From Candidatus Omnitrophota bacterium (GTDB taxonomy: Bacteria; Omnitrophota; Gorgyraeia; JAHIPI01), in the NCBI GenBank assembly GCA_030616695.1, contig JAUWWU010000013.1, forward strand, positions 1-10,534: a stretch of 10,534 nt of DNA, read 5' to 3'. Below the pieces are notes generated by a model. It was not told where the DNA came from. It ran no database searches and worked only from the letters and a program-made list of their open reading frames with translations. Made by a program: the position numbers and the translations under genes. How positions within the stretch are numbered: the stretch's first letter is position 1; each line of letters starts with the position of its first letter. Shown here in pieces: positions 3,207 through 3,635 of the stretch.

Positions 3207-3280
3207 GGGGCTGTAGTATAGCGGGAATACGCCACGTTCGCAACGTGGAATCAGGGGTTCGATTCCCCTCAGCTCCACCA
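3207..3280 (+). tRNA. tRNA-Ala (anticodon CGC), CCA encoded
   Basis: A full cloverleaf can be drawn by eye. The acceptor is GGGGCTG with CAGCTCC, including the G3-U70 pair that marks alanine tRNAs. The D arm is GTAT/ATAC. The anticodon stem is CCACG/CGTGG around the loop TTCGCAA, giving anticodon CGC, which reads GCG. The variable loop has 4 bases. The T arm is AGGGG/CCCCT around TTCGATT. The discriminator A is at 3277 and CCA is encoded at 3278-3280. The mature length is 74 with CCA. No convincing promoter was found just upstream, because the AT-rich repeat makes weak matches common. Its last 21 bases are repeated exactly 179 bp downstream. Confidence 0.95.
3260..3280 (+). repeat. Direct repeat copy 1 (attL-like), tRNA T loop to CCA
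   Basis: This is the first copy of the 21-bp exact repeat. It starts at the C of the TTC in the T loop, runs through CCCCTCAGCTCCACCA, and ends with the encoded CCA of the complete tRNA. Confidence 0.9.
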
Positions 3281-3438
3281 GCTTTCTTGCAGGATGTGGA
3301 GATAGCAGGAATCGAAGTGAGCCGGCGCCGACGCGTAGGAGGAAAAGCGCGTACTTCCATGAATCGCAGAAGCTAGCGATAGCCGGCGAGTGGCCGACCG
3401 GAGCACCCTGGCGAACGCAGAGAGCCGGGCGAAGGCGC
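3281..3438 (+). mobile_element. Possible micro-element inserted at the tRNA-Ala 3' end
   Basis: This 158-bp segment lies between two exact 21-bp copies of the tRNA 3' end. By hand count it is about 63% GC, well above the neighbouring genes. It holds no credible ORF. It has strong local structure: GAAGT (3314-3318) and ACGCG (3331-3335) pair with the contiguous CGCGTACTTC (3348-3357), enclosing a loop with AGGAGG, with the self-complementary CGGCGCCG at 3323-3330 bulged out. A second hairpin pairs ATCGC (3363-3367) with GCGAT (3376-3380). AGCCGGCG occurs twice (3320, 3381) and GGCGCC twice (3324, 3434). The layout, with a complete tRNA on one side and only its 3' end on the other, is what integration into a tRNA gene leaves. 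No integrase is encoded here, so it would be a non-autonomous element, a deletion remnant, or a structured RNA processed with the tRNA. Confidence 0.5.
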
Positions 3439-3459
3439 CGATTCCCCTCAGCTCCACCA
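3439..3459 (+). repeat. Direct repeat copy 2 (attR-like), orphan tRNA 3' end
   Basis: This 21-bp exact copy of tRNA bases 3260-3280 includes CCA but has no tRNA 5' half before it. Upstream sequence is GC-rich insert and downstream is CTAAAACG. It cannot form a second tRNA. The length and position fit a tRNA-type attachment site. Confidence 0.85.
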
Positions 3460-3461
3460 CT

Positions 3462-3564
3462 AAAACGTTCGGGCTCCGGGGCTAAAAAGTGAGGATTGGG
3501 CTTTTTACCCCTCCACCCTGCGGCAATATGAAAAGCAGGGCAGGACTTGCGTCCGAACGTTTTT
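3462..3564 (+). ncRNA. Candidate structured RNA of about 100 nt ending in a T tract
   Basis: An 11-bp perfect outer stem joins AAAACGTTCGG (3462-3472) with CCGAACGTTTT (3553-3563). Inside are a hairpin of GGGG-C-TAAAAAG with CTTTTTA-CCCC (3478-3489/3501-3511, one bulged C, 11-base loop), a hairpin of CCCTGC with GCAGGG (3516-3521/3535-3540), and a small GGAC-TTGC-GTCC hairpin (3543-3554) that competes with the outer stem. The 3' side of the outer stem runs into TTTTT, as in an intrinsic terminator. It may end the tRNA transcript or be a separate small RNA. It does not show the SRP RNA GGAAG-tetraloop core or any other family I can name. Since the arms are inverted repeats next to TA dinucleotides, a small MITE is an alternative. 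Confidence 0.45.
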
Positions 3565-3599
3565 AAGGAGACAACTTTTTAGAAAAAAGTTTTCTCTTT
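3565..3599. other. AT-rich hairpin before the MEMO-AMMECR1 gene
   Basis: AAGGAGA-C-AACTTTTT (3565-3580) pairs with AAAAAGTT-T-TCTCTTT (3584-3599) through one mismatch and one G-T pair, with a three-base AGA loop. It has few GC pairs and no clean T tract after it, so it is a poor intrinsic terminator. It could be read from either strand or be a second boundary of the structured segment before it. Confidence 0.45.
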
Positions 3600-3635
3600 A
3601 ATGTTCCTTTTTCAAAAATAAGCGGAGAAAGTAAT

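Follow-up and report, generated by a model that had tools for sequence, protein, structure and literature searches.

A short folded insert behind tRNA-Ala(CGC) as a member of an apparently undescribed family of tRNA-associated elements in Omnitrophota

The 158-bp insert that follows an intact tRNA-Ala(CGC) gene belongs to a family of short folded Omnitrophota elements that has apparently not been described; a literature search, in which preprints and most subscription papers lay outside the scope, returned no description of such elements behind tRNA genes. Comparison of the copies leads us to regard the family as very probably mobile and non-autonomous. With moderate confidence we favor the reading that the insert is one of a phylum-wide set of very small, non-autonomous mobile elements that target tRNA genes, whose arm would act as a guide and for which a small GIY-YIG nuclease working in trans is the candidate enzyme.

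The window, that is, the whole stretch of 10,534 nucleotides that was analyzed, lies on contig C96 of the metagenome-assembled genome G000. The features that matter for the argument are the following.

3207..3280, plus strand: host gene tRNA-Ala(CGC), intact, CCA encoded (ARAGORN; Rfam RF00005, 66.6 bits).
3258..3266, plus strand: TTCGATTCC, tRNA positions 54-62, the stretch complementary to the arm, containing the insertion point 56|57 (sequence; complementarity profile of 124 units).
3281..3304, plus strand: leader, of a length and sequence that vary among units (unit comparison).
3305..3316, plus strand: guide-like arm GCAGGAATCGAA, ending in 9 nt that match the reverse complement of tRNA 54-62 exactly (position in sequence; unit comparison).
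3317..3439, plus strand: conserved structured core with GGCGCC at its end (match of model R1 at 3302-3447, 146.4 bits; covariation).
3321..3387, plus strand: helix P2, 3321-3326 with 3382-3387, around P3, which has tandem GA mismatches, and P4 (6 of 6 pairs changed on both sides).
3392..3439, plus strand: helices P5 (3392-3394 with 3437-3439; 3398-3399 with 3434-3435) and P6 (3406-3412 with 3424-3429) (model, covariation).
3440..3459, plus strand: second copy of tRNA 57-76 (3439-3459 with the shared C), of which 3440-3445 pairs with the arm as P1 (sequence, model).

An earlier note on this DNA had described a 21-base tRNA end duplicated exactly 179 bp downstream, and so it is: CGATTCCCCTCAGCTCCACCA, the last 21 bases of tRNA-Ala(CGC) at 3260-3280, recurs without a change at 3439-3459 and is the sole 21-mer repeated within the window. 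The strict duplication is nevertheless 20 nt (tRNA 57-76), because C3439, which corresponds to tRNA C56, is part of the conserved GGCGCC end of the element and pairs in helix P5. The insert proper, 3281-3438, was said to have about 63% GC in a lower-GC surround and to lack an ORF. We find 62.7% GC against 46.8% for the window and about 40% for the near flanks; of the three ORFs (63-75 aa) that overlap the insert, none lies wholly within it and none shows any sign of being a gene. When the window was scanned with Rfam, the tRNA alone reached the gathering score, and the matches around the insert stayed below the cut-off, none of them naming an intron. The 161 bp right after the tail copy (3460-3620) are 93% identical to the stretch that follows the unit at tRNA-Gly(CCC) in the same genome (L002), and thus form a further repeat located behind tRNA genes.

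A DNA search with the insert hit four places in its own genome, behind tRNA-Ala(CGC), tRNA-Gly(CCC), tRNA-Glu(CTC), and tRNA-Ala(GGC), the last copy being truncated and without a tail copy. Among the relatives, 12 of 99 genomes matched, the insert's own genome counted, and a copy of the tRNA tail was present downstream in 18 of the 23 DNA-search loci with a tRNA called and absent or decayed in the other five. Within the class, a covariance model built from 15 units matched 79 of 197 genomes (E 0.01 or better), with up to 14 copies per genome; across the phylum it matched 93 of 285 sampled Omnitrophota genomes (E 1e-4 or better). Named genomes were also scanned with a pattern of 14 fixed bases: among the 80 loci listed, L258, L285, and L329, all from Omnitrophota, scored above 33 bits with the model, the remaining ones, a fourth Omnitrophota record (L262) included, gave 18.3 bits or less or no match at all, and most matches of this pattern are due to chance. 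Tandem, truncated, and partly decayed second units occur, and no protein-coding gene was seen inside the units that were read. The unit behind tRNA-Glu(CTC) in the insert's own genome (L003 1248-1610; G000:C127) measures 363 nt, about 180 nt above its relatives; the extra length consists of added hairpin sequence within the core, and its 21-nt tail copy is exact.

In the fetched loci, 138 of 177 model matches (a number that includes a few places fetched twice) start within 100 nt after a same-strand tRNA gene, and the host genes represent 17 amino-acid types. Copies behind other tRNA genes, with right ends matching each host tRNA, are what the earlier note had proposed to look for in this genome and its relatives, and both were found. 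Comparison of tails in the 135 distinct units out of the 138 gave a copy (20 nt, positions 57-76) identical at 20/20 in 66 units and at 18/20 or better in 118, while agreement with tRNAs of another isotype almost never reached 17/20. The second tail matches at less than 17/20 in 12 of the 135; some downstream tails are thus decayed, and a second tail copy is therefore unnecessary for a working tRNA. Behind tRNA genes ending without CCA, 36 of 39 tail copies also lack it and match the gene's own letters; three (L052, L054, L061 tRNA-Pro) read CCA despite a CCA-less gene, which is about the chance rate. Since the copies follow the letters of the gene, CCA-less ends included, the duplication looks as though it was made from the gene and not from the mature tRNA. 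Analyses of leader, core neighbors, and arm were confined to the 124 units with a tail copy of at least 15/18, a choice that biases copy identities there upward. The direct repeat extends at least 6 nt beyond the tRNA in 49 of these 124 units; the leader is unrepeated after the tail copy in 75 and repeated at least partly in 49. As for the 39 matches with no tRNA within 100 nt, the right end recurs upstream (15/20 or better) in 19, and the other 20 have no clear upstream tail match, some of them lying at contig ends. The unit at L110 976-1091 (G194:C77), for which no tRNA was called in the 1 kb upstream, has at its right end the tRNA-Ser tail that is also present in L056 of that genome, and is either an orphan copy or a strain variant.

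Several observations speak for movement between tRNA genes. Of 124 units, 52 have their nearest core at a different tRNA within their own genome, 12 have it at the same tRNA in another genome, and 60 at another tRNA in another genome. In genome G067, the tRNA genes for Met, Arg, Gly, Thr, and again Arg are each followed by a unit, and the five cores are 92-98% identical. The tails of these five genes agree with one another at 9-14 of 18 positions, and the arm and tail of each unit fit its own tRNA apart from a few positions; given the identity of the cores, these elements must have spread recently. The earlier note had raised empty sites in sister strains as a point to check; G021 and G139, two species of one genus, differ by presence or absence at two loci (tRNA-Met and tRNA-Gly). 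In G139 the tRNA-Met gene almost adjoins tRNA-Val, and in G021 a unit, its tail copy, and a palindromic element separate the pair; at tRNA-Gly(CCC), G139 has the order tRNA, unit, tail, palindromic element, tail, palindromic element, and G021 has palindromic sequence only after the tRNA. More generally, sister species carry units at different sets of tRNA genes. The suggestion of a non-autonomous mobile element is thereby upheld by copies behind other tRNAs, by right ends that match the host, and by presence or absence at two loci. One further candidate, a 2.2-kb stretch between tandem units (L069 3074-5250), was set aside as it is bounded by its own 40-bp inverted repeats; by eye, its ORFs resemble an Xre-type regulator and a RES-domain protein.

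The hairpins reported from the single sequence proved a mixed case: they are backed by covariation across relatives, whereas the fold of the single insert is no better than that of shuffled sequences on either strand (z -0.77 and -0.27), so that the claim of structure rests on covariation. The fold comprises P1 (arm with tail copy), P2, P3 with its tandem GA mismatches, a short P4, and P5/P6. Across 80 distinct aligned units, 92.3% of cells were paired against 74.0% after shuffling and 29-47% after sliding, and 26 of 29 pairs were changed on both sides against 15.7 after shuffling, figures that come from an alignment which had been fitted to the model. Mismatches in the core favor the tRNA-sense strand as the folded one, because G.A (132) far outnumbers C.T (14); the ratio of G.T to A.C (74 versus 51) points weakly in the same direction. 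P5 ends at C3439, directly against copy position 57, and as a result P5 and P1 are contiguous on the tRNA strand.

The core is directly preceded by the reverse complement of the host T-arm, which forms an arm of 9-12 nt whose complementarity to the host tRNA spans 56|57. In 124 units the arm pairs with its own tRNA at 94-100% for positions 54-62, at 82, 59, and 55% for positions 63, 64, and 65, and near background from 66 on. At the discriminating positions 57, 59, and 60, pairing amounts to 97, 99, and 96% with the own tRNA versus 60, 28, and 72% with other isotypes, bearing in mind that the register of the arm was picked by best fit to the tRNA, which favors pairing. At the 12 positions within 57-65 where the tail copy departs from its tRNA, a few of which are alignment slips, it is always the tRNA that the arm fits, the register again having been picked on the tRNA. 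In 54 pairs of units, the cores share 85% identity or more while the tRNA arms differ, at 149 positions in total; both element arms follow their own tRNA at 102 of them, one arm at 34, and neither at 13. Taken together, these sequence comparisons make it reasonably probable that the arm functions as a guide. An origin of the arm as a full-length reverse copy of the tRNA end, an idea prompted by L151 and L148, was rejected, for the pairing profile reaches only to 62-65. An arm for a new target may arise by drift of the guide with choice of fitting tRNAs, or by copying of the target. At tRNA-Lys(CTT) of two species of one genus (L054 and L065), tRNA, arm, and tail copy share an identical single change, be it concerted change or re-insertion.

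The question then arises as to which enzyme might move such elements. A second family, of palindromic elements, consists of a hairpin, GATCCTGAG, an inner hairpin, and GAAGGACC, often facing an inverted partner, and follows many tRNA genes in G021 and G139 (L158, L161-L165, L186, L189, L190). Palindromic copies at L189 and L190 end in the tail of the host tRNA, and a mechanism shared with our family is likely because the palindromic elements add tail copies too. A 12-base motif, GACGAATAGGAG, considered as a link between all hairpin families, was weakened by its distribution (16 exact matches in five of eight genomes, none in three carriers). The only nuclease seen within such tail-duplicating insertions is of the GIY-YIG type. 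Two small GIY-YIG genes lie in insertions that end with a copy of the host tRNA tail, one of 89 aa (L231 1453-1722) and one of 79 aa (L252 1501-1740); at L231/L195 the gene sits between inverted palindromic ends and a tail copy of 17/18, and at L252 it precedes a 15/18 tail copy, after which more than 40 bp of the flank are repeated. Of 29 small GIY-YIG loci examined, which are a part of all small GIY-YIG matches, 12 are found no more than 450 nt behind a same-strand tRNA gene and 17 do not lie behind a tRNA; the chance expectation is roughly 0.5% by our estimate (39 tRNA genes in 1.7 Mb, G021). Small GIY-YIG ORFs (frames below 200 aa) were found in all 17 carriers and in all five non-carriers searched (one below the curated cut-off), so that their presence does not discriminate carriers. 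None of five GIY-YIG proteins was named by NCBIfam, with one weak match below the cut-off. On the strength of this association, a small single-domain GIY-YIG nuclease acting in trans is tentatively put forward as the best candidate mover, a role that it may well not have. At L013 and L228, sequences next to tRNA 3' halves look by their motif like group I introns inside the tRNA gene.

It is tempting to propose the following scheme. The arm would pair with the tRNA strand at 54-65 and thereby bring the 3' end of the element (helix P5, with its GGCGCC) up against position 57; P5 and P1 would then make a single helix with the junction at their border. The tRNA strand would be opened at 56|57, and position 57 would receive the 3' end of the element where P5 meets P1. 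Extension would start from the free 3' end left at C56, remaking 57-76 and sometimes further flank, before the extended strand would be joined to the 5' (left) side of the element. The enzyme would work in trans, the best candidate being a small single-domain GIY-YIG nuclease such as occurs within two related tail-duplicating insertions. The scheme would account for the intact tRNA and its tail copy, for a junction that is fixed at 57 while the other end varies, and for the arm that spans the junction. In its boldest form, to which we give rather little credence, it amounts to nucleic-acid-guided insertion into tRNA genes by a folded element of 100-200 nt, with a guide of 9-12 nt spanning the T-loop joint, guide and tail being renewed for each target, and a GIY-YIG nuclease in trans together with host enzymes doing the chemistry. 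If insertion is indeed guided, altering the guide would alter the tRNA gene that is hit. If the scheme is right, many genomes of one phylum would harbor a class of mobile element without a known enzyme, directed at a fixed position common to nearly all tRNAs by a short guide fitting each host tRNA. This would be a novel way of target choice by a very small sequence, and would account for many unannotated hairpins behind tRNA genes.

Other readings of the insert deserve to be weighed against this scheme. The earlier note had leaned on the geometry of attL/attR with an integrase encoded elsewhere, which would make the insert a remnant or mini-island of a tyrosine-recombinase element with the 21-bp repeats as its attachment sites. 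Integrases usually target the T-loop and the 3' end of tRNA genes, the repeat begins in just this region, and Phage_integrase matches occur in 12 of 12 carriers. Near-identical cores nevertheless carry differing tails and arms, as in G067, where both vary with the host tRNA; a fixed attP does not explain such a family, and the tails of G067 do not show an att core shared by all sites of one element. Furthermore, some duplications continue into the flank, and just two Phage_integrase matches each were obtained in G001, G067, G135, and G155, which by their number would be the host XerC/XerD, so that no dedicated tyrosine integrase is apparent in these four of the 12 element-rich genomes. The attachment-site geometry is thus not supported, and we consider this origin unlikely. 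Retrotransposition, in which an RNA copy would be reverse-transcribed from a nick at 57 in a target-primed manner to leave one fixed and one variable junction, agrees with the junction at 57, with the variable other end of the duplication, and with a fold on the transcribed strand. RVT_1, the sole reverse transcriptase family searched, is present in only two of the 12 element-rich genomes and absent from the other ten, including the single-contig G026 and G069 as well as G067 (95% complete), whose cores spread recently, and G155 (93%), which makes this route very improbable.

Two further readings place the function of the insert in its RNA. An intron-like RNA could excise itself, its arm pairing on both sides of the joint 56|57, such that everything from the first tail through the core would be removed and the second tail would complete the tRNA; the arm that spans the joint, the folded covarying core on the transcribed strand, and the mostly intact tail copies are all in line with this. 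The tRNA is already complete with its first tail, however, 12 of 135 units have a second tail below 17/20, the arm agrees with the first tail at the 12 positions of 57-65 that distinguish the two tails, alignment slips among them, and no group I or other intron family reached the Rfam gathering score in the window. The suggestion of an RNA cut out along with the tRNA consequently loses the part in which the second tail is needed for a working tRNA, and survives as a slim chance. About equally slim is the chance of a conserved functional RNA, serving for example in tRNA maturation or regulation, that spread with tRNA genes and is not selfish. The strongly conserved fold, the constant use of the tRNA strand among the 138 matches, and the joint change of tRNA, arm, and tail at tRNA-Lys of two species would suit such an RNA; its patchy occurrence (93 of 285 genomes), the different sets of tRNAs occupied in sister species, and the tandem and truncated copies would not.

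Mobile elements aimed at tRNA genes, the reading that we favor, may finally be compared with known systems. In the parts of the literature consulted, REPINs and REP sequences mobilized by RAYT, a Y1 transposase, are described as short, non-autonomous, and folded, with many intergenic copies (PMC3116915, PMC8266576), and our family resembles them, as far as those sources go, in being likewise short, non-autonomous, folded, and present in many copies between genes. It differs from them in aiming at one point of tRNA genes, in duplicating the tail, and in having an arm that fits the target; moreover, a search of 18 genomes for Y1_Tnp (PF01797) gave matches in 12 and none in the carriers G067 and G155. 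With the tRNA elements of tyrosine recombinases the family shares the target region, the repeated tRNA 3' end, and a tRNA that stays intact, whereas its repeat and arm change with the target and four carriers have no apparent dedicated integrase. In single-strand transposons of the IS200/IS605 type, which require a Y1 transposase, a guide at the foot of the folded strand pairs with the target, and the arm at the foot of our fold resembles such a guide sequence; these transposons are not known to duplicate their target, whereas the units have a duplicated tail, and a Y1 transposase was not found in the two carriers just named. GIY-YIG homing elements come to mind in view of the small GIY-YIG genes behind tRNA genes, at two loci inside tail repeats, yet no GIY-YIG gene lies inside the units of our family that were read. 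Integron cassettes with attC run from a first half-site through a linker and a folded site with pairing outer arms to the next half-site, and form tandem arrays; the family has the same order of parts and tandem arrays, but no cargo genes in the units read, and its arms follow the host tRNA. In kind, the insert would belong with the short non-autonomous mobile elements that are known already, and there is a real chance that its targeting is itself new in kind.
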